Below, one piece after another: positions 7,467-19,015 of a stretch of DNA of 64,000 nucleotides; within the stretch, counting starts at the first letter, position 1, and each line of letters starts with the position of its first letter. A model generated the notes under the pieces. The model was not told where the DNA came from. It saw only the letters and a program-made list of their open reading frames with translations, and searched no databases. Position numbers and translations under genes: made by a program. This DNA is from Puia sp. Its GTDB lineage: Bacteria; Bacteroidota; Bacteroidia; Chitinophagales; Chitinophagaceae. The stretch is from the NCBI GenBank assembly GCA_031292515.1, contig JARLGZ010000275.1, positions 62,001 to 126,000 on the forward strand, in the 5' to 3' direction.

Positions 7467-7542
7467 AGGCCCGGGGCCCGGCGGGAAAAACCGGATGCAA
7501 CGGTTGGTAACTATTATTTGTCAATGCAAAGCAAAGGAGTGA

Positions 7543-8100
7543 ATGGATCATCACCAGTTGGTTAAAAGCTGTTTAAGGGGGGATGCGGTTGCACAAAAGC
7601 AGCTGTATGAGCATTTTGCGGCCGGAATGCTGGGGGTCTGCTATCGCTATACCAAGTCCATGACGGATGCGGAAGATGTGCTTCAGGAGGGATTTATCAT
7701 GGTATATAAGAATCTGCACCAATTCAAGTTTGAGGGCGAGCTGGGAGGATGGATACGCCGGATTATGGTCAATACGGCCATCAATTACCTGAAAAAGCAG
7801 AGCCGTTATCAGACCGAATTGCTTTTTACCGAGGGCGGTCTTCATCCTGTCTCCAACGACGATCCGGCTGTGTCCATGGACACAAAGGAACTAGCCGGTT
7901 TGATCCGCCAGTTGCCGCCGGGTTACCAGGCCATTTTCAATATGCATGCCGTGGAAGGATATAGCCATGTGGAGATCGGGCGGATCATGGGCATCAATGA
8001 AGGAACTTCGAGATCGCAATATGCCAGGGCGAGGGCGTTGCTGATCAGCTGGATCAATAAATTGTCGGAAACCAAAACAGAAACGTATGCACGACCCTAA
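7543..8100 (+). CDS. ECF-type RNA polymerase sigma factor
   Basis: A 185-residue sigma-70 family protein with only regions 2 and 4, typical of ECF factors. Region 2 includes YEHFAAGMLGVCYRYTKSM, then DAEDVLQEGFIMVYKNL (core RNA polymerase binding and -10 recognition). Region 4 includes LPPGYQAIFNMHAVEGYSH and an HTH in EIGRIMGINEGTSRSQYARAR. An AAAGGAG sequence precedes the ATG. The stop overlaps the start of the next gene by 14 bases, which implies coupled translation with what looks like its own anti-sigma factor. Confidence 0.92.
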   Translation: MDHHQLVKSCLRGDAVAQKQLYEHFAAGMLGVCYRYTKSMTDAEDVLQEGFIMVYKNLHQFKFEGELGGWIRRIMVNTAINYLKKQSRYQTELLFTEGGLHPVSNDDPAVSMDTKELAGLIRQLPPGYQAIFNMHAVEGYSHVEIGRIMGINEGTSRSQYARARALLISWINKLSETKTETYARP

Positions 8101-9643
8101 ATTCGAGAAAGATGTGCAGCAAAAGATGGAAGAACTGAGTTTTATTCCTTCCGAGAGCGTTTGGGAGAACGTGGAAAAAGAGATCAGGAAGGAGAAAAAG
8201 CGCAGGGTTCCCGTTTTTTGGTTCTTCCTCCTGGCGGGGATCATGCTGACGGGCGGATACTATGCACTCTTCTGGAAATCATCTTCGACAGGACGCCATC
8301 CGGCAGGTTTCCCCTCTGCTGCAACAACTGCGCTCGCATCCCGGAATCCCAACGGATCCGTACGCGGCGCCTATAAGCCCGGGAAAACATCGGTGGGGAC
8401 CCCTGATTCAGGCTTGGCAAATACGGCTTCTGCGGTGAATACCGGAAATTCCCTTGCAGCCGGCAGCGCTTCTCACCCGCGCGTTGTCATCCGGACGTTT
8501 GTTCGCGGGAACTCTCAAACCGGGAAAGAGACGCATGGTCGTGAAGGAGCCAGGCAGCACCCAGGTGGCGTGCAGGAGGAACGAACCTCCTCCGGATCGG
8601 ATCTTGCCACCGCCGAACCCTTTACGAAAAAACAGCCAAAACCAGGTGGCGCCGTCGGCGCGAATGCCGTTATCGGAGGCAACGAGTCTGCAGAAAATAG
8701 CATCCCTTCAAAGAATAGCATCCCTTCAAAGAACCATGTCCCTATAAAGGACTCTATCCATACCGCGGATAATATCCATTCAACGGATAGTGCCAGCGCT
8801 AAGAATATTCTCAAGCCGGCAAATAAGGCCCTCACTCACGCCGACAAACCCGTCGACCCCCTCGATAAATCCGTCGATAAAAAAACGGCCTCTGCCAGGA
8901 AGCTCAACGTTCCTCACCGATGGAAAATCGGGCTGACGGCCGGCGGCGGTGTCTCCGCGGTAGACAGATCCCTGTTCAGGCGGTCGTCCGCGGCAGAGCT
9001 GTCCAGTTTTGCCACCACCTTTGCCGCCTATCCTCCGGGCTGGCTGACACGCCCTTCGACGATCCGGCAGGGCTTTTCATTTTCGGCAGGAGCTTTTGGT
9101 TCGAGGGCGCTAACCCGTAAGCTGTCCTTTTCTGTCGGTTTGAACTATCATTATTATTCCACCAGTATTCAGACGGGTCCCGCCCTGAGCCAGGCTGCCG
9201 CATACCCGAGCAGTTTAATGATTTCGTTAAATGCAGGCAACACGTATGCCGCCCGGGGAGCCTATAGCGCAGGAGATGAAGGCGTTCATACGGGTCAGTA
9301 TCATTTGCTGGAATTACCGGTGTCCGTTCAATGGCAATTTGCACGTCTTCGCAGATTACCCTTGTTTTGGGAGACAGGGTTCGCCGTTTCGGAGCTTGTC
9401 GGGGCCAATATCCTTCACTTTGATGGTACGTCGGGTACCTATTACAAAGACAATTCCCTGTTCAGAAAAACGCAGGTGAGCCTGTCGACCGCGGTCATGG
9501 TGGGAGTACCGGCGGCTGGCCGTGGCATCCTGCTGGGCCCGGAAATACAATACGGATTGACGGACCTGCTGAAGAACAATATCGGGGATGCACAGCACCT
9601 GCTGTACGGGGGCGTAAAACTGGCGTTTATGCTGGGGAAATAG
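8087..9643 (+). CDS. Putative dual-membrane-spanning anti-sigma factor with C-terminal beta-barrel-like domain
   Basis: A 518-residue protein in four parts. Residues 1-40 are a charged cytoplasmic segment (EKDVQQKMEELSFIPSESVW) like the short anti-sigma helices of Bacteroidota. Residues 41-63 form one transmembrane helix (VPVFWFFLLAGIMLTGGYYA). Residues 64 to about 278 are a low-complexity Ser/Thr/Asn/Lys/Pro linker with a duplicated NSIPSK unit. Residues 279-518 alternate polar and aromatic/hydrophobic residues, as in outer-membrane barrels (WKIGLTAGGGVS, LSFSVGLNYHYYSTS), and end in VKLAFML. The gene overlaps the ECF gene by 14 bases. This layout matches the Dma type of anti-sigma factor that I recall from Bacteroides, which crosses both membranes. 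The barrel assignment is from pattern only; the signal sensed is unknown. Confidence 0.7.
   Translation: MHDPKFEKDVQQKMEELSFIPSESVWENVEKEIRKEKKRRVPVFWFFLLAGIMLTGGYYALFWKSSSTGRHPAGFPSAATTALASRNPNGSVRGAYKPGKTSVGTPDSGLANTASAVNTGNSLAAGSASHPRVVIRTFVRGNSQTGKETHGREGARQHPGGVQEERTSSGSDLATAEPFTKKQPKPGGAVGANAVIGGNESAENSIPSKNSIPSKNHVPIKDSIHTADNIHSTDSASAKNILKPANKALTHADKPVDPLDKSVDKKTASARKLNVPHRWKIGLTAGGGVSAVDRSLFRRSSAAELSSFATTFAAYPPGWLTRPSTIRQGFSFSAGAFGSRALTRKLSFSVGLNYHYYSTSIQTGPALSQAAAYPSSLMISLNAGNTYAARGAYSAGDEGVHTGQYHLLELPVSVQWQFARLRRLPLFWETGFAVSELVGANILHFDGTSGTYYKDNSLFRKTQVSLSTAVMVGVPAAGRGILLGPEIQYGLTDLLKNNIGDAQHLLYGGVKLAFMLGK
8696..8731. repeat. 18-bp tandem duplication in the anti-sigma linker
   Basis: AATAGCATCCCTTCAAAG occurs twice back to back. 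It encodes the duplicated N-S-I-P-S-K unit of the linker and keeps the frame, so it lengthens a flexible region without damage. Confidence 0.9.
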
Positions 9644-9660
9644 TCTGTGACGAGGAAATG

Positions 9661-9692
9661 AAATACTTTATCCGGGAAATACTTTATCCGGG
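9661..9692. repeat. 16-bp tandem duplication at the queG stop codon
   Basis: AAATACTTTATCCGGG is present twice in direct succession. The second copy contains the queG stop codon (9684-9686, minus strand), so the duplication lies at and just beyond the gene end. Confidence 0.9.
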
Positions 9693-10715: not shown

Positions 10716-12746
10716 ATGAATGCGCCCACCCTTTACGGCTTGACCGTATGCTTGTCCTGTTTCGTTTTCTCCCTGTCTGCCCAGGACAAGGGGCAATCAG
10801 CTTCCGGGAAGATCACACCCGCTGATTTTGTCCTCCCTTCTTCTCCGGCTATCGACAGCAATACCAATGCGGTCATTCTCAGCGATGTGGGATCCACTCA
10901 TTTTAAGGGCAATCAAAGCGGATGGTTCTCTTATGTCTTCAAACGCCAGGTGCGGATAAAAATACTTAATAAACAAGGCCTGGGTCTGGCGACCATAAGG
11001 ATATTCCTGCATATTAAAGACGATGACAAGGAGAAACTGGAGGATCTGACTGCTTCGACCTACAACCTGGAAAACGGGGCAGTAACTGAGTCAAGACTTG
11101 TAAAGGGCGATATCTTCGAGGACAAACCGGACCAGCATACGCTGGAAGAGAAGTTTACCATGCCCGGCGTTGTGAACGGGTCGATCATCCAGTACAGTTA
11201 TACCATCACTTCGGATTTTTACTATAATCTTCCCGACTGGGAATTTCAGTCCCTGGAAGCGCCTTGTCTTTGGAGTGAATACAATGTGGTCATTCCGAAC
11301 ACCCTGCGATTTGTCTTTGTAAAAAGAGGATTTCATCCTTTTTTTCTCGATAAACAGAAGGAAGGGACGGAGTCCTACCGGGTCGAGGAGAGGACAGATG
11401 ATCCGTTAGCAAGGGCAGACCATGCTTTTGAAGTCAGCACAAATACAAGCATTCACAGGTGGGTGATGAAGGATGTCCCCAGGCTGCCCGTGGAAGACTA
11501 TGTGACGACGCCGCTGAATTATTCCGATAAATTGGAATTCCAGCTTTCCCAGACCTATAACGGGGAGACGACCCGGGATTATATGAATAGCTGGGCCCAG
11601 GCTACCGCGGACCTGTTAAAGGAGAAAACTTTCGGCGAGCCCCTGAAGGAAGACAATGACTGGCTGGATCCCCTCCTGGATAGAATAGCTCCTGTCTCCG
11701 ACGACCCGTTGCAGCAGGCGAAAAAGATCTATTATTATTTATCCGGGAATTTCACCTGTACGGATCATGATAGCAAATATCTGAAAACGACGTTAGAGGA
11801 TGTAGTCAAGAGACGGAACGGAAGCGTCGGCGAACTGAACCTGCTCCTTATTGCCCTGCTCAGGCGCCGGCATTTTAAGGCCGACCCCGTGCTTCTCAGT
11901 ACCCGGGAATTCGGGTTCAACCTGGCAAAATACCCGATCCTCGAAAGATTGAACTACGTCATTTGCCGTGCCGGGATAGGCGGGAACGTCTTTTTTCTGG
12001 ATGCATCCCGGCCAGGGCTGGCTTTCGGATGTCTCCCGGAGAATTGCTATAACGGGCATGCGAGGGTGATCAGTGAGCAGGACTCCGTGTCCGTATATTT
12101 CTGGGCCGACTCCCTGCGCCAAAAAGAGGATGTCCTGGTCATGCTTTCCAACAGTGATCAGGGTGTTCTGCAGGGCAACTTTCAGTCCGTATCCGGCTAT
12201 CCCGGATCCTACCGAATTCGGGAAAAGGCCCGGAAGTCCGGGCTGACAGGCTTTTTTAAAGATCTCCAGGCTTCTTATGGAAAGGATCTCCTCATTTCCA
12301 ACGGCGGTATCGACTCCCTGGATGACCCGGAGGCCCCGGTGAAGGTCCACTATGATTTCGAATGCAAGATGGACAAGAATGCGGATCTTATCTATTTTGA
12401 TCCCGTGTTGAAGGACGATTTCAGGAGAAATCCCTTCTCCGCAACTGTCCGGAAATATCCCGTAGAAATGGCCCATACCCTGGACGAGAGCTATGTATTA
12501 AACATGGAGATCCCGGTCGGTTATTCGGTGGAGGAAATGCCAAAATCGGCCAGGGTATCTTTCAACGAAAATGAAGGGTCTTTCGAATACATGATAGAAA
12601 GACAGGGAAACCTCATCCTTATGCGCTCCCGGATCAGGTTGGATCGAACCGAATTTTTACCGGAGGATTACAATATGTTGCGCGATTTTTTCGCTTATAT
12701 TGCCAAAAAGCAGAACGAGCAGATCGTTTTCAAAAAGAAACCTTAA
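10716..12746 (+). CDS. DUF3857/transglutaminase-like protein, copy A (catalytic residues lost)
   Basis: A 676-residue exported protein: signal peptide to about residue 21 (LSCFVFSLSAQ), DUF3857 beta domain, a transglutaminase-like core, and a C-terminal DUF3858-type beta domain ending in KKQNEQIVFKKKP. Aligned with the fourth gene of the cluster (17117), the catalytic Cys position is Val371 (NGSVGEL against YGDCKAL) and the His position is Tyr414 (LNYVIC against FNHVIS). Only the acidic residue remains (FFLDAS). The core should therefore lack cysteine-peptidase or transglutaminase chemistry and may bind peptides or carry a structural role. It is the first gene of a four-gene paralog run; a decayed copy follows after five bases. 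Confidence 0.85.
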   Translation: MNAPTLYGLTVCLSCFVFSLSAQDKGQSASGKITPADFVLPSSPAIDSNTNAVILSDVGSTHFKGNQSGWFSYVFKRQVRIKILNKQGLGLATIRIFLHIKDDDKEKLEDLTASTYNLENGAVTESRLVKGDIFEDKPDQHTLEEKFTMPGVVNGSIIQYSYTITSDFYYNLPDWEFQSLEAPCLWSEYNVVIPNTLRFVFVKRGFHPFFLDKQKEGTESYRVEERTDDPLARADHAFEVSTNTSIHRWVMKDVPRLPVEDYVTTPLNYSDKLEFQLSQTYNGETTRDYMNSWAQATADLLKEKTFGEPLKEDNDWLDPLLDRIAPVSDDPLQQAKKIYYYLSGNFTCTDHDSKYLKTTLEDVVKRRNGSVGELNLLLIALLRRRHFKADPVLLSTREFGFNLAKYPILERLNYVICRAGIGGNVFFLDASRPGLAFGCLPENCYNGHARVISEQDSVSVYFWADSLRQKEDVLVMLSNSDQGVLQGNFQSVSGYPGSYRIREKARKSGLTGFFKDLQASYGKDLLISNGGIDSLDDPEAPVKVHYDFECKMDKNADLIYFDPVLKDDFRRNPFSATVRKYPVEMAHTLDESYVLNMEIPVGYSVEEMPKSARVSFNENEGSFEYMIERQGNLILMRSRIRLDRTEFLPEDYNMLRDFFAYIAKKQNEQIVFKKKP

Positions 12747-12751
12747 CCTGT

Positions 12752-13058
12752 ATGAGCCTTATCCCAGTTGTTCTCATTTTTTTATTCTTTTTCTTCCACC
12801 CCTTTCCGGGGGTTGCGCAAGATGATCCTCCCTGTAAGTTTTGCAAAGTGACACCCTCCGTCTTCGACCTTCCTGCCGGCGTATCCGGGACCGACGTCTC
12901 GGCCGTCATAATAGCCAGTGACGGATCAGGGGTGAAACCGGGTTTCCATGTGAAGCTGAGCCGGATGAAATTTCTACCGGGGGATGATGATGTGCTGTGC
13001 GATTTTTTGGCCTGGTCGTTACCGGGACGAACAGATCTTCTTTAAAAGGAAGAAATAG
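12752..13058 (+). pseudogene. Collapsed DUF3857 paralog: N-terminus joined to C-terminal tail
   Basis: The frame from 12752 encodes a signal peptide (SLIPVVLIFLFFFFHPFPGVAQ) and the start of a DUF3857 domain (KVTPSVFDLPAG...SAVIIASDGS, compare KMTPADFN...PAVVIADIGE). It then jumps to the very C-terminus of the family (VKLSRMKFLPGDDDVLCDFLA, compare RLDRTEFLPEDYNMLRDFFA). After a net frameshift near 13020 the other frame gives DEQIFFKRKK and a TAG at 13056-13058, matching NEQIVFKKKK of the neighbours. About 560 internal residues are missing. In its own frame the ORF stops at 13045 after 97 codons. It is best read as a remnant of a fifth copy; a small secreted protein cannot be excluded. Confidence 0.8.
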
Positions 13059-13076
13059 TATATAATAGCTCCTGAT

Positions 13077-15014
13077 ATGACCATGAAACCCCTGACAGGC
13101 TTATTGCCCTGCGTCCTATTGCTATGGAACGGACTCCTTGCACAAACAGCGTCACGCGACGGATCCGGTGATAAGTCGGCTGTGACTTTTGGCAAGATGA
13201 CGCCCGCGGATTTCAACGTCCCTGCTCCCCCGTTCGATTCGACGTCGCCGGCGGTAGTCATCGCCGATATCGGAGAAACTCACCTGGGCTTCGCCCTGGG
13301 GAAATTTTATGTGCTTACCCGGCATTTCCGGCGGATAAAAATACTCGATGAAAGGGGATATGACGCATCTAAAGTGGAGATCATCCTTTTTTCCGGGGAA
13401 AGAAGAGATGCCCTGCTGAGCGATCTCCATGCATCCACTTACAACCTGGAAAACGGCAAAATAGAGGTAAGCAAACTGGACGAGAAATCCGTATTTACAG
13501 ATAAGATCAATAAAAGCTATTCCACGAAGAAATTCAGTTTCCCGGGCGTAAAAAAGGGGTCTATCATCGAATATGATTATTCGGTCCAATCCGATTATCT
13601 GCTTTATGTTCCATCCTGGGACTTCCAGGGGAAATATCCTTGTTTATGGAGCGAATATGAAGTTACCATCCCCGACTATCTGAAGTATGTATTCCTGGCC
13701 CAGGGTTACCGGCCATTTTTTGTAAAGACGGCAAAAGATATTCCCGGATTGGAGTACGAGCCTTTTGTGACTACCCTCAATAACCATATCAGCAAGATAG
13801 AGTTTCAACTCTCGCAAATAGAATTTCCCACGCAACTTCCCCGGGATATGATGGGAAACTGGTTCACGCTCAGCGGGAAGTTGATGGAATCGGAGCATTT
13901 CGGCGCCGCGCTCGACAAGAATAATGGCTGGATGGGCGACGAATTGAAACAGGTCATAAAAGGAGAAACCGATCAGGTGGAGAAAGCCAGGAAAATCTAT
14001 GCTTTTCTCCGGGATAGTTTCACTTGTACGAATCCCCGCGGCGCGGAAGTGGAAACGTCGTTGAAAGAAGTCTTCAGAACCAGGAAAGGAACCGAAGCGG
14101 AGATCAATCTCCTGTTGACCGCCTTGCTGAACCACGTCGGCATCGTTGCGGATCCGGTCATAGCAGGTACAAGGGAGCATGGCTATACGAACCCCGTCTA
14201 TCCGTTGCTGACAAGGTTCAACTATGTGATTTGCCGGGCAGCGATCGATTCTGTCGCATGGTACCTGGATGCGAGTTCTTCCTGGACCGGATTTGGACAG
14301 CTGCCTGAATATCTTTACAACGGGCATGCCCGGGTGGTCAATAAGACCAACCCTCAGCCCGTATATTTCGAGGCGGATTCGCTAAAGGAGAAGAGTACGA
14401 CTTTTGTCGTCATCAATAACGACGGCAATGGCGGAATAGCTGGCAGTTTTCAGTCTACGCAGGGCCTGGTCGGTTCTTCCAAAGTTCGCGAAAAAGTCTA
14501 TAAGGAGGGCGAAGCCGGTTTCTTCAAGGCTATAAAAGAATCATATACCTCCGAATTTTCGATCTCCGATATGCAGATCGATTCGCTGAAGATAAAGGAA
14601 GAGCCCGTGAAAATATCTTATTCCTTTTCCTATAAGCCGCCTTCCGAAGGCGATCTGATCTATTTCAGGCCGATGCTGGGGGAAGGGTATAAGATGAATC
14701 CCTTTAAAGAGGAGAAAAGGCTGTTTCCGGTCGAAATGCCCTATGCGCTGGATGAAGTCTATATCCTCAGTATGGCTGTGCCGGACGGTTACCAGATCGA
14801 CGAGCTGCCGAAATCGGCCAAAGTGCTTTTGAATGGCACGGACGGTTTTTTCGAATTCGTGGTTGACAACGATGGCCAAAACATTCAAATGAGATCCCGG
14901 CTCAAATTGAATAAGGCCAATTTCGGGGCGTCCGACTATGAAACGCTTCGTGATTTCTATGCGATGGTCGTCAAGAAGCAGAATGAACAGATCGTATTCA
15001 AAAAGAAAAAATAG
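13077..15014 (+). CDS. DUF3857/transglutaminase-like protein, copy B (catalytic residues lost)
   Basis: A 645-residue exported paralog of the genes on either side, with signal peptide (LTGLLPCVLLLWNGLLAQ), DUF3857 domain, transglutaminase-like core and DUF3858-type tail (DFYAMVVKKQNEQIVFKKKK). The Cys position is Glu340 (KGTEAEINLL) and the His position is Tyr383 (FNYVIC); Asp remains in WYLDAS. Compared with copies A and C it lacks roughly 35-40 residues between YRPFFVKTAKD and EYEPFVTTLNNH, where the others have the VMKDVP... segment just before the core. Start is the ATG at 13077 or the one two codons later. It follows the collapsed copy by 18 bases. Confidence 0.85.
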   Translation: MTMKPLTGLLPCVLLLWNGLLAQTASRDGSGDKSAVTFGKMTPADFNVPAPPFDSTSPAVVIADIGETHLGFALGKFYVLTRHFRRIKILDERGYDASKVEIILFSGERRDALLSDLHASTYNLENGKIEVSKLDEKSVFTDKINKSYSTKKFSFPGVKKGSIIEYDYSVQSDYLLYVPSWDFQGKYPCLWSEYEVTIPDYLKYVFLAQGYRPFFVKTAKDIPGLEYEPFVTTLNNHISKIEFQLSQIEFPTQLPRDMMGNWFTLSGKLMESEHFGAALDKNNGWMGDELKQVIKGETDQVEKARKIYAFLRDSFTCTNPRGAEVETSLKEVFRTRKGTEAEINLLLTALLNHVGIVADPVIAGTREHGYTNPVYPLLTRFNYVICRAAIDSVAWYLDASSSWTGFGQLPEYLYNGHARVVNKTNPQPVYFEADSLKEKSTTFVVINNDGNGGIAGSFQSTQGLVGSSKVREKVYKEGEAGFFKAIKESYTSEFSISDMQIDSLKIKEEPVKISYSFSYKPPSEGDLIYFRPMLGEGYKMNPFKEEKRLFPVEMPYALDEVYILSMAVPDGYQIDELPKSAKVLLNGTDGFFEFVVDNDGQNIQMRSRLKLNKANFGASDYETLRDFYAMVVKKQNEQIVFKKKK

Positions 15015-15067
15015 TCTGCCTGTGAAATGAATTTGTATCGGCAATAATCTATCATCAAACCCCTACT

Positions 15068-17113
15068 ATGAGTATGAAACCCCTGACTGGCCTGGTATTA
15101 ATTATCTTATTACTCCAAAACCGAGTTTTTGCACAGGAGAAAATACCGGATCACTCCAATGAAAAATGCAGTGTCAGATTTGGAAAAATGACACCCGCGG
15201 ATTTTAATCTTTCAGCCTATAAATATGATTCCGGTGCATCGGCCGTGGTCATCGCCGACGTAGGGGAATCGCATATGGAAGGCAACAGCAAGGGTTGGTT
15301 TTCGATCGTATATAAAAGAAGCCGGCGGGTGAAGATCCTCAATAAGAACGGATATGATGCGGCACAGGAAGAGATTTCCCTCTATACGGGAGGGAATTCG
15401 ACTGAAAAAATCGAAGGCTTGAAGGCGACGACCTATAACCTTGAGAACGGTAAAGTTGTGGAAACCCGGCTGGACGACAAATCCGTCTTTACCGACAAGG
15501 TCAATAAGAACCGGATACGCATGAAATTTGGTTTCCCCGCGGTAAAGGAAGGATCGGTGATCGAATATTCTTATACCATCCAGTCCGATTTTATATACAA
15601 TTTTCGGCCATGGGTTTTCCAGGGGCAGTATCCGTGCCTATGGAGCGAATATACCGTCACCATCCCGGAATATTTCCAGTACATACAAATCAGCCAGGGA
15701 CTACAGTTTTTCTATATCCGGAAGCCGATTGATCGTTCCTTTAATGCCAAGGTGATTATACCCGGCGGAGCCGAAAGGGATAGGACGTTCGCTCTTGATG
15801 GGCGGGCAACCGAATACCGCATGGTCATGAAGGATGTACCCCCTCTAAAAAAAGAAGCCTATACAACTACTCTCAGCAATTATATCGCGAAAATAGAATT
15901 CCAGCTATCCTCTTATGCGTTTCCGCAAATGCCTCCGAAAAACATAATGGGTAACTGGAATCTGCTCAGTGAAAAGTTGATGGAAGCGCCGTACTTCGGC
16001 GCCGCTATCACGAAAAATAACGGCTGGATGGATGATGAGGTAAAAGAGATCACAAAAGGTACGATCAGCGAAATAGGGAAAGCGCAAAAGATCTATGCTT
16101 ATATCCGTGACAACTTCAATTGCACCGGTAACAATGGTTTTGAGGTGGAGACCCCGTTAAAAACAGTATTTAAGGACAAGAGCGGGACCTCCGCGGAGCT
16201 CAATCTTCTGCTGACCGCTATGCTGGCGCATGTGAATCTTAATGCTGATCCGGTCATCCTGGGCACGAGGGAGTCCGGATTTACAAACCCTTTCTATCCG
16301 TTAATCACCCGGTTCAACTATGTGGTCTGCAGGGTCAATATCGATACCGCGACCTATTACCTGGACGCCAGCCAGTCTTGGATGGGGTTCGGGCATCTGC
16401 CCGGGTATTGTTATAACGGACACGCCCGCGTGGTAAGCAGACTGAAACCTGAAGCCGTATTTTTCTACGCGGATTCTTTGAAGGAACAAAAAACGACGAT
16501 GGTACTTATCTTGAGCGATGACAAGGGGCAGATGTCGGGAACGTTTCAATCCATCCTGGGTTATATAGCTTCTTCGGACCTTCGTAAGGATATACACAAA
16601 AGAGGCGAAAAAGAATATTTTAAGGACATTCAGGCATCATATCCTCCGGAATTTGCAATTTCCAATACCGGGATCGACTCCCTCAAGATACAGGAGGAGC
16701 CGGTTAAAGTCAGTTACGAATTCACCTATAAGCCGGCGGCGGAGGATGGAATCATCTATTTTAATCCGATGCTTGGCGAGGAGGGGTACAGGGTCAACCC
16801 ATTCAAATCCGCGGAGAGGAATTACCCGGTCGAGATGCCTTATGCGCGGGATGAGATATACCTGCTGACTATGGCTGTTCCTAACGGATATGTCGTCGAT
16901 GAGATGCCGAAGTCCGTCAAGGTGCTTTTTAACGATGACGAGGGTTTTTTCGAATATCTGGTGGTGAGCGACGGGCAGAATATCCAATTGAGCTCTCATC
17001 TGAAATTAACAAGGGCCAATTTTCAGCCGGAGGACTATGCGACCCTGCGGGATTTTTATGCCTTCATAGTGAAGAAGCAAGGTGAACAAATCGTTTTTAA
17101 AAGGAAAAAATAG
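15068..17113 (+). CDS. DUF3857/transglutaminase-like protein, copy C (catalytic residues lost)
   Basis: A 681-residue exported paralog with signal peptide (LTGLVLIILLLQNRVFAQ), DUF3857 domain including the RMVMKDVPPLKKEAYTTTLSNY segment, core and DUF3858-type tail (DFYAFIVKKQGEQIVFKRKK). The catalytic Cys position is Ser375 (SGTSAELNLL) and the His position is Tyr418 (FNYVVC); the Asp in YYLDAS remains. Copies B and C are more alike than either is to A over most of the length, which suggests a recent duplication. The next gene starts three bases after the stop. Confidence 0.85.
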   Translation: MSMKPLTGLVLIILLLQNRVFAQEKIPDHSNEKCSVRFGKMTPADFNLSAYKYDSGASAVVIADVGESHMEGNSKGWFSIVYKRSRRVKILNKNGYDAAQEEISLYTGGNSTEKIEGLKATTYNLENGKVVETRLDDKSVFTDKVNKNRIRMKFGFPAVKEGSVIEYSYTIQSDFIYNFRPWVFQGQYPCLWSEYTVTIPEYFQYIQISQGLQFFYIRKPIDRSFNAKVIIPGGAERDRTFALDGRATEYRMVMKDVPPLKKEAYTTTLSNYIAKIEFQLSSYAFPQMPPKNIMGNWNLLSEKLMEAPYFGAAITKNNGWMDDEVKEITKGTISEIGKAQKIYAYIRDNFNCTGNNGFEVETPLKTVFKDKSGTSAELNLLLTAMLAHVNLNADPVILGTRESGFTNPFYPLITRFNYVVCRVNIDTATYYLDASQSWMGFGHLPGYCYNGHARVVSRLKPEAVFFYADSLKEQKTTMVLILSDDKGQMSGTFQSILGYIASSDLRKDIHKRGEKEYFKDIQASYPPEFAISNTGIDSLKIQEEPVKVSYEFTYKPAAEDGIIYFNPMLGEEGYRVNPFKSAERNYPVEMPYARDEIYLLTMAVPNGYVVDEMPKSVKVLFNDDEGFFEYLVVSDGQNIQLSSHLKLTRANFQPEDYATLRDFYAFIVKKQGEQIVFKRKK

Positions 17114-17116
17114 GCT

Positions 17117-19015
17117 ATGAAGACTTTTTTGTTATTTATATGGGCCATAGCGCCCGTGTGCCTTTCGGCCCAGTCTTACGATGTGAAGTTGATCCCGGAT
17201 TCCTTAAAAAAGAATGCCCGGGCGGTAGTAAGGGAGGATGAATATATCCTGGAGATCAAGTCTCCGGGAAAGGCCGTCACAAAAGAACGCCATGTTTACA
17301 CGATCCTCGACGAGACGGCCGATAATGTAGGGGGGTACAGGAGCCTGTACGGTAAATTCAATAGTATCAGTTCCATATCGGGCTATCTCTATGATGCGGG
17401 CGGGAAGGAGCTGAAGCACGTGAAGAAAAAGGATATGGAAGACCGAAGTTATGTTAGCTGGGAGAACCTTATCGATGATGAAAGATATAAAGAACATGAT
17501 TTCTATTATCGAACTTATCCCTACACGGTAGACTACCAGGAAGAAGACGAATTCAACGGTCTCATGGGTTTTAGTGCCTGGAGACCGCTGCATGCACCCG
17601 GGATATCCACGCAGCATAGTAAATATGTGATCATCGCCCCCGCGGATTATAAGGTGCGCTATAAACCATTCAATTGCAGTTACCAACCTGTTATTGCCGA
17701 GGTTGGCGGCAAGAAGATCTACACCTGGGAGATCGGCAACCTGGCAGCCCGCTCTACGGAAACATCCGGTCCGGGATGGAGCGCTATGGCGCCCGTGGTT
17801 TTGATTGCACCTTCGGATTTTGAAGTGGAGGGGTATAAAGGGAATATGTCCACCTGGACAAGTTATGGGAAATTCATAGATCAACTGCGTGCAGGCAGGG
17901 ACGTACTGCCGGAGGAGATCAAAAAAAAGGTGCATGAATTAACCGACAACCTGAAGGACCCCCGTGATAAGGTCTATGCACTTTACGATTTTTTGCAGAA
18001 AAATACTCACTACGTAAGCATTCAGCTGGGCATTGGCGGCTGGCAGCCGTTTCCGGCGGAATACGTGGCGACCAAACGGTATGGAGATTGTAAAGCCTTG
18101 TCCAATTATATGGTGGCTTTGCTTAAAGAGGCGGGAATCACAGGGAAATATGTTGAGATAGCAGCCGAGCAGGGCGCTGCCCCCCTGATAGAAGACTTTC
18201 CCTGTTCTCAGTTTAACCATGTAATCTCCTGTGTTCCGATGGGCAAGGATACAATTTGGCTGGAGTGCACCAGTCAAACCGGGTCTCCCGGCTATATGGG
18301 TAGTTTTACCGGTGACAGGAAGGCCGTTATCATCGACTCGGCGGGCGCTCACGTTGTTTCCACTCCGTCATATTCTTCATCAGACAACCTGGAGTCCCGC
18401 GTAATAAATGCTTCCATCGATGCGGATGGGAACCTGGACGCCAATTCGAGCACTTATTACAGTTGCCTGGCCCAGGAGATGCCCCATTTTCTGATCCACG
18501 ATGTTTCCGGCGAACAACGTGAAAAATACCTGAATCAGCTCTTTAACCTGCCGACCTACAAAGTGGATAAAAGCAGCTATGAAGAGATAAAAGGGGCTAA
18601 ACCGGCAGTAAAGGAGTATCTGCATGTTACCTCTCCGGGTTATGCGGGCGTATCGGGAAAAAGGATGTTCATCAGCCCGAATTTATTCGACAAAAGCAGT
18701 ATACGATTCTCCCCGGATTCTGCAAGGAGGTATGATTTGGTCTATAACCATGCTTCCAGGGACGTCGACAGCATTTCGTTGACTATACCCGATGGGTATA
18801 CGCCAGAGTCGGTTCCCCAGGATGTGAAGATCGATTGTAAATTTGGGAAATACAGCGCTTCCCTGAAGCTCATGCCCGGCAAAATAACATACTACCGGAT
18901 TTGGGAGCAGAATCGCTACAGATACCCCGCTTCCGATTACCCTGAATTCGTCAAATACTACGAGCAGATCTATAAAGCCGATCATGCCCGGGTGGTGCTG
19001 GTGAAAAAGGAGTAG
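17117..19015 (+). CDS. DUF3857 and transglutaminase-core protein with intact Cys-His
   Basis: A 632-residue exported protein: short signal peptide (TFLLFIWAIAPVCLSAQ), DUF3857 domain, transglutaminase core and C-terminal beta domain. Here the core keeps the catalytic Cys325 in RYGDCKALSNYM and His368 in FNHVIS. The third residue is Glu383 in WLECTSQ, a form I believe is common in this family. It is thus the only member of the cluster likely to be an active cysteine enzyme (transglutaminase- or protease-like), probably periplasmic or surface-exposed. Substrate is unknown. It ends the operon; the next gene is convergent, six bases away. Confidence 0.85.
   Translation: MKTFLLFIWAIAPVCLSAQSYDVKLIPDSLKKNARAVVREDEYILEIKSPGKAVTKERHVYTILDETADNVGGYRSLYGKFNSISSISGYLYDAGGKELKHVKKKDMEDRSYVSWENLIDDERYKEHDFYYRTYPYTVDYQEEDEFNGLMGFSAWRPLHAPGISTQHSKYVIIAPADYKVRYKPFNCSYQPVIAEVGGKKIYTWEIGNLAARSTETSGPGWSAMAPVVLIAPSDFEVEGYKGNMSTWTSYGKFIDQLRAGRDVLPEEIKKKVHELTDNLKDPRDKVYALYDFLQKNTHYVSIQLGIGGWQPFPAEYVATKRYGDCKALSNYMVALLKEAGITGKYVEIAAEQGAAPLIEDFPCSQFNHVISCVPMGKDTIWLECTSQTGSPGYMGSFTGDRKAVIIDSAGAHVVSTPSYSSSDNLESRVINASIDADGNLDANSSTYYSCLAQEMPHFLIHDVSGEQREKYLNQLFNLPTYKVDKSSYEEIKGAKPAVKEYLHVTSPGYAGVSGKRMFISPNLFDKSSIRFSPDSARRYDLVYNHASRDVDSISLTIPDGYTPESVPQDVKIDCKFGKYSASLKLMPGKITYYRIWEQNRYRYPASDYPEFVKYYEQIYKADHARVVLVKKE

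Follow-up and report, generated by a model that had tools for sequence, protein, structure and literature searches.

A predicted Dma/Reo-type dual-membrane anti-sigma factor with a candidate lipoprotein regulon in Puia

Overview of the system

The window analysed here is a stretch of 64,000 nucleotides (nt) from a Puia sp. genome (contig JARLGZ010000275.1, positions 62,001 to 126,000). At 7543-9643 it carries a pair of overlapping genes on the forward strand that encode an extracytoplasmic function (ECF) sigma factor and a predicted anti-sigma factor ending in a β-barrel. With a probability of roughly 75%, we interpret this pair as a two-membrane switch of the Dma/Reo type, in which the sigma factor transcribes its own operon and a dispersed, mostly lipoprotein regulon from the promoter TGCAACG-N15-TTGTCA. 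The conserved promoter and the predicted regulon are points that were absent from the first-pass annotation of this DNA.

In the proposed mechanism, residues 1-40 of the anti-sigma factor would hold the sigma factor sequestered in the cytoplasm. One helix would span the inner membrane, a disordered tether tolerant of changes in length would cross the periplasm, and an OmpA-like barrel would sit in the outer membrane. Disturbance of the outer membrane or failed assembly of the barrel would then inactivate the anti-sigma factor, most simply by regulated proteolysis, and release the sigma factor. Once free, the sigma factor would transcribe the operon that encodes it as well as a small set of scattered genes from promoters with short leaders. 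The products would be mostly lipoproteins, and the recurrent targets include lipoproteins of the LVIVD and serpin families as well as an initiating sugar transferase. The gene pairing, the domain layout, the predicted fold of the barrel, the promoter with its recurrence upstream of the sigma gene and the enrichment in lipoproteins are computational results; from these we infer the binding of the sigma factor, the insertion into both membranes, the reading of the motif by this sigma factor, the inducing signal and the release mechanism.

The promoter and the predicted regulon

An exact copy of the motif is found at 7496-7523 on the forward strand, 19 nt 5' of the sigma start codon, and is predicted to be an autoregulatory ECF promoter. 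The 31 orthologous sigma loci for which 100 nt or more of upstream sequence is available (the window included) were scored over the 13 motif positions. All 13 positions are matched in 21 loci, at least 12 in 25 and at least 11 in 27. The motif usually lies 12-21 nt from the sigma start codon, the exceptions being L019 (44 nt) and L155 (78 nt).

A strict search of 33 congeneric genomes returned 89 sites, compared with none for the control, which was the same pattern read backwards. Based on matches in a Dma protein search, 29 of these genomes were assigned as carriers of the orthologue. At least one site is present in 26 of the 29 (88 sites), and one of the other four genomes has a single site. 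Among 47 further genomes from the family and order, a strict site occurs in eight of ten clear carriers and in eight of the 37 others (including G047, see below), and the reversed control occurs in four.

Twenty-two of the 89 sites are known sigma promoters, and 60 of the remaining 67 were fetched; the seven left unfetched are the four in the genome of the window and one each in G001, G005 and G017. An open reading frame (ORF) of at least 70 residues begins within 250 nt of 55 of the 60 sites, and in one case (G023) this is again the sigma gene. Using a simple lipobox pattern that was refined on these data, 44 of the 55 downstream ORFs are classified as lipoproteins, whereas among the remaining ORFs of these stretches only 27 of 349 are (Fisher p ~1e-29). 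The first version of the rule gave 32 of 55 and 20 of 349, respectively. When random points in these loci were put through the same procedure 200 times, the mean was 1.8 lipoproteins and the maximum 6. The start codon is at most 30 nt from the motif in 46 of the 55 cases (random mean 14 of 43), which is the pattern expected of a promoter with a very short leader.

The 55 targets contain groups of related proteins that recur across genomes (9, 6, 6, 5, 5, 5, 4 and 2 proteins). A Pfam scan of 41 of them identified five serpins, five LVIVD proteins and three sugar transferases, together with 11 other families that are represented by one member each; no NigD family member was found among these 41.

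The genome of the window itself contains 17 sites with at most one mismatch, compared with one for the reversed control. Genes with a strict or near-strict site in front of them encode a serpin lipoprotein, a DUF4397 lipoprotein, a DUF7948 protein and several small lipoproteins that match no Pfam family, and one site lies 535 nt upstream of a PF02397 sugar transferase. Several of the 17 sites have no plausible gene downstream, and thus some of them are chance occurrences.

The sigma factor and the domain layout of its partner

The sigma gene (7543-8100, forward strand, 185 residues) matches PF04542 (E = 1.6e-15) and PF08281 (E = 3.5e-15), in agreement with the first-pass assignment of an ECF sigma factor, and 17 aligned orthologues are 62-94% identical to it. 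Among the 25 of 101 NCBIfam matches listed, the superfamily model TIGR02937 is the only one above its cut-off. TIGR02985, which we take to be the model for FecI-type sigma factors of Bacteroidota, gives 72.9 bits and thus remains below its cut-off of 126.4 bits.

The anti-sigma gene (8087-9643, forward strand, 518 residues) overlaps the sigma gene by 14 nt at 8087-8100, as had also been noted earlier. Our alignment comprises the window protein and 31 orthologues, which come from relatives in the genus and family. The two ORFs overlap in all 32 pairs, and in 23 of the 32 the overlap is exactly 14 nt.

Residues 1-40 (8087-8206) form the predicted cytoplasmic anti-sigma segment, with a helix at residues 4-16 and a second helix starting at residue 23. 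With a mean pairwise identity of 0.50 this is the most conserved of the four regions (membrane helix 0.30, linker 0.12, barrel 0.31), and it is modelled with block predicted local distance difference test (pLDDT) values of 69-81. Its putative binding to the sigma factor is suggested by the conserved overlapping gene pair and the published Dma and Reo precedents. Residues 41-63 (8207-8275) are predicted to form a single inner-membrane helix, in line with a hydropathy peak at residues 43-61 and a model helix spanning residues 23-66.

Residues 64-278 (8276-8920) form a predicted disordered periplasmic linker of 215 residues with low identity, for which the AlphaFold pLDDT is below 50 over residues 68-207, 209-213, 215-217 and 219-254. 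Across the 32 orthologues its length varies between 140 and 253 residues (median 188.5). It is nearly free of cysteine and carries a net positive charge in 31 of the 32. A minimum length is therefore kept while the sequence is not, which is the behaviour expected of a tether. In the window the linker contains an 18-bp tandem duplication (8696-8733, 2.1 copies, 100% match). A worm-like-chain estimate gives a contour length of 50-91 nm and a relaxed span of ~6-12 nm. The periplasm is ~20-30 nm wide, and the linker could therefore bridge it, although it would be stretched when doing so.

Residues 279-518 (8921-9640) are predicted to fold into an eight-stranded outer-membrane β-barrel. The only Pfam match of the protein is to PF13568 (residues 277-495, E = 1.4e-7, 32.2 bits compared with a cut-off of 27). 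AlphaFold models of the 32 orthologues contain eight strands, with pLDDT values of 91-98 for most strand blocks, and the best match to a solved structure is the transmembrane domain of OmpA (Foldseek and VIA-align). Long connections (18-45, 12-46, 18-21 and 11-14 residues) alternate with short turns (3-5, 4-7 and 2-3 residues), and within each strand hydropathy differs between one face and the other. Family and modelled fold both suggest an OmpA-like outer-membrane barrel.

This layout agrees with what the first-pass annotation had read from the DNA: an inner-membrane helix at residues 41-63, a disordered linker of about 215 residues with an 18-bp duplication and a changeable length, and a C-terminal β-barrel pattern.

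Nature of the signal and identity of the reader

The barrel could also be a ligand-gated surface receptor, the loops 296-324 and 364-398 binding an external molecule and the tether relaying the signal inwards. These two loops are the most variable in length and the least conserved of the long loops. Variable outer loops are, however, common among outer-membrane barrels, and we count this against a receptor. Glycan sensing has been hypothesised for Dma2 by the authors of PMC13088901, as described in the available part of that paper, and this speaks for a receptor. On the other hand, we saw no evidence of a ligand, and the lipoprotein regulon is equally consistent with general envelope stress. 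We consider a receptor function unlikely.

A second alternative retains the Dma-type switch and places the motif mainly under the control of another sigma factor, so that the window sigma gene is one target of a wider network. Two observations weigh in its favour and against our preferred reading. In the genome of the window the region-4 family PF08281 is matched 91 times (E ≤ 0.01), which makes cross-recognition possible, and the motif is present in a few genomes that lack a clear orthologue.

Several other observations indicate that the window sigma factor is probably the reader of TGCAACG-N15-TTGTCA. The site that recurs, in the genus as well as in the family, is the one in front of its own gene, and the motif is rarer in genomes that do not carry the orthologue. 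The family of the third gene of the operon is also a dispersed target of the motif: a lipoprotein with an LVIVD-type N-terminal signature is the third gene in 13 of the 32 loci (Pfam was run on two), and an LVIVD lipoprotein located elsewhere in the genome bears the motif in five other congeneric genomes. The gene behind dma has its own copy of the motif in two family members (L388 and L402). A search of the genome of the window for an LVIVD protein found none. The protein search gave no match in G047, but a copy of the motif there pointed to a sigma gene with a Dma-like gene behind it (L394; the Dma-like gene runs past the stretch), a pair that had been missed.

Finally, the paralogous sigma factor has a distinct motif. 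For the pair of the type found on contig C149 this is TGCAGC-N15-TTGTCTA, with 13 sites in the 33 genomes compared with four for the reversed control. Eleven of the 13 are the promoter of the paralogous sigma gene itself, which indicates that the reach of this paralogue hardly extends past its own operon, in contrast to the dispersed set controlled by the window type. All of this makes another sigma factor as the main reader quite improbable. The paralogous sigma-Dma pair with the motif TGCAGC-N15-TTGTCTA (L144:1168-2979; also L158, L120, L118, L154 and L157) precedes a small lipoprotein-like gene and a gene that we take to be uvrC-like.

That the C-terminal domain is instead a soluble periplasmic barrel, which would make the protein a long-stalked anti-sigma factor of the usual kind anchored in one membrane, is very improbable: the structure prediction proposed in the first-pass annotation yielded no soluble periplasmic fold, although soluble PsbO barrels do align to the domain, more weakly than OmpA.

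Distribution of the architecture

Contigs of named genomes were scanned with the sigma alignment, and the best 80 of at least 362 confirmed loci were kept. By the rule applied, 71 of these 80 have a downstream ORF. The encoded protein has at least 350 residues and a helix starting at residues 30-80 in 44 cases, is a shorter one-helix protein in 23 and is of another kind in four. At E ≤ 0.01, PF13568 is found in 34 of the 44 long proteins and PF13505 in 15, some of these matches falling short of the curated cut-off. Their hosts include Chitinophagaceae, Runella, Spirosoma, Roseivirga, Hymenobacter, Saprospiraceae and a Bacteroidales bin. The nearest named relative among the best loci is Flavitalea sp. 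BT771 (G002, of the same genus), with a sigma factor that is 84% identical.

The genome of the window has at least five such pairs, located in the window and on contigs C149, C257, C148 and C5. Three of the five anti-sigma factors score above the PF13568 cut-off, that on C257 has a sub-threshold match to PF13505 and that on C5 has no match.

The proposal that a dual-membrane anti-sigma factor from Chitinophagaceae would widen the Dma class is partly supported: PF13568, conservation, AlphaFold and structural alignment all favour the architecture. The widening itself is modest, as the architecture occurs across the phylum and Dma is already called a Bacteroidota family in the accessible part of PMC13088901.

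In 23 of the 71 loci (L223 to L277), related sigma factors are followed by one-helix proteins, mostly of ~180-200 residues, that leave no room for a barrel. Such relatives would make it possible to follow, on a tree of the sigma factors, where tether and barrel were gained or lost. Another locus of the window genome (L168:416-3056, contig C98) encodes an ECF sigma factor, an anti-sigma-like protein with a helix at residues 164-182 and, as a separate gene, a PF13568 barrel; this is an unfused arrangement of similar parts. At L197:929-3325 a single Dma-like gene lies between two sigma genes, all in the same orientation.

Neighbouring sequences

A perfect 16-bp tandem duplication is present at 9660-9692, shortly 3' of the anti-sigma stop codon. 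The region further downstream (10716-19015) encodes four proteins that are large (632-681 residues) and secreted; three of them are clearly alike, and the four resemble a tandem-duplicated family. In several relatives, an N-terminus similar to that of this family is found beside a queG-like gene.

Possible function and comparison with known systems

To our knowledge, the sensing of outer-membrane damage in Bacteroidota is poorly understood. Published work on this class of anti-sigma factors, as far as covered by the sources available, concerns gut species. The present locus supplies a promoter motif, a list of targets and an operon partner in Chitinophagaceae, which makes the regulon directly testable, and the idea that such switches control lipoproteins becomes comparable across the phylum. 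Tentatively, and short of favouring it, we suggest that the Dma-type switch of Chitinophagaceae may be a dedicated lipoprotein controller whose ancestral partner is the LVIVD β-propeller lipoprotein, encoded either within the operon or at another place that has the promoter as well. Together with the control of NigD by EcfO-Reo, this would suggest that the class as a whole serves lipoprotein output and that the lineages have exchanged the families they target.

FecI/FecR likewise consists of an ECF sigma factor and an inner-membrane anti-sigma factor, but its outer-membrane component is a TonB-dependent receptor encoded apart from the anti-sigma factor, whereas here that component is fused to it. 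The OmpA transmembrane domain shares 11% identity with the barrel, which in our case forms the C-terminal end of an inner-membrane protein that is paired with a sigma factor.

In layout the protein corresponds to Dma1 and Dma2 of Bacteroides thetaiotaomicron with Das1 and Das2, which have the same N-terminal anti-sigma segment, transmembrane helix, long disordered tether, C-terminal β-barrel and adjacent ECF sigma gene according to the available part of PMC13088901; the likeness is one of described layout rather than of direct sequence alignment. Dma2 lies in a three-gene operon there. The outputs given in that part of the paper are vesiculation, NigD1 (Dma1) and polysaccharide loci (Dma2), whereas other lipoprotein families and a defined promoter are predicted here.

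EcfO-Reo of Bacteroides fragilis and Phocaeicola vulgatus likewise has an anti-sigma factor that is predicted to span the periplasm and to end in an outer-membrane barrel (PMC9308784, PMC13114119; both as far as accessible). In the accessible part of PMC9308784, an envelope-acting toxin raises expression of the sigma gene 33-fold in P. vulgatus, three NigD genes are upregulated, and so is a glycosyltransferase gene of the lipopolysaccharide region. According to the available text of PMC13114119, EcfO-Reo is proposed to react to stress at the outer membrane, and the NigD proteins under its control are described as surface lipoproteins. The accessible parts of these two papers contain no promoter motif for EcfO-Reo. 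In place of NigD, LVIVD, serpin and small unnamed lipoproteins together with a PF02397 sugar transferase are predicted here, and the Chitinophagaceae regulon would thus parallel that of EcfO-Reo, as described in those parts, in kind with different families.

Our literature search, with most subscription papers outside its coverage, revealed no publication that deals with this promoter or with a member from Chitinophagaceae. We class the protein itself with the known Dma kind; the new content is the predicted regulon.
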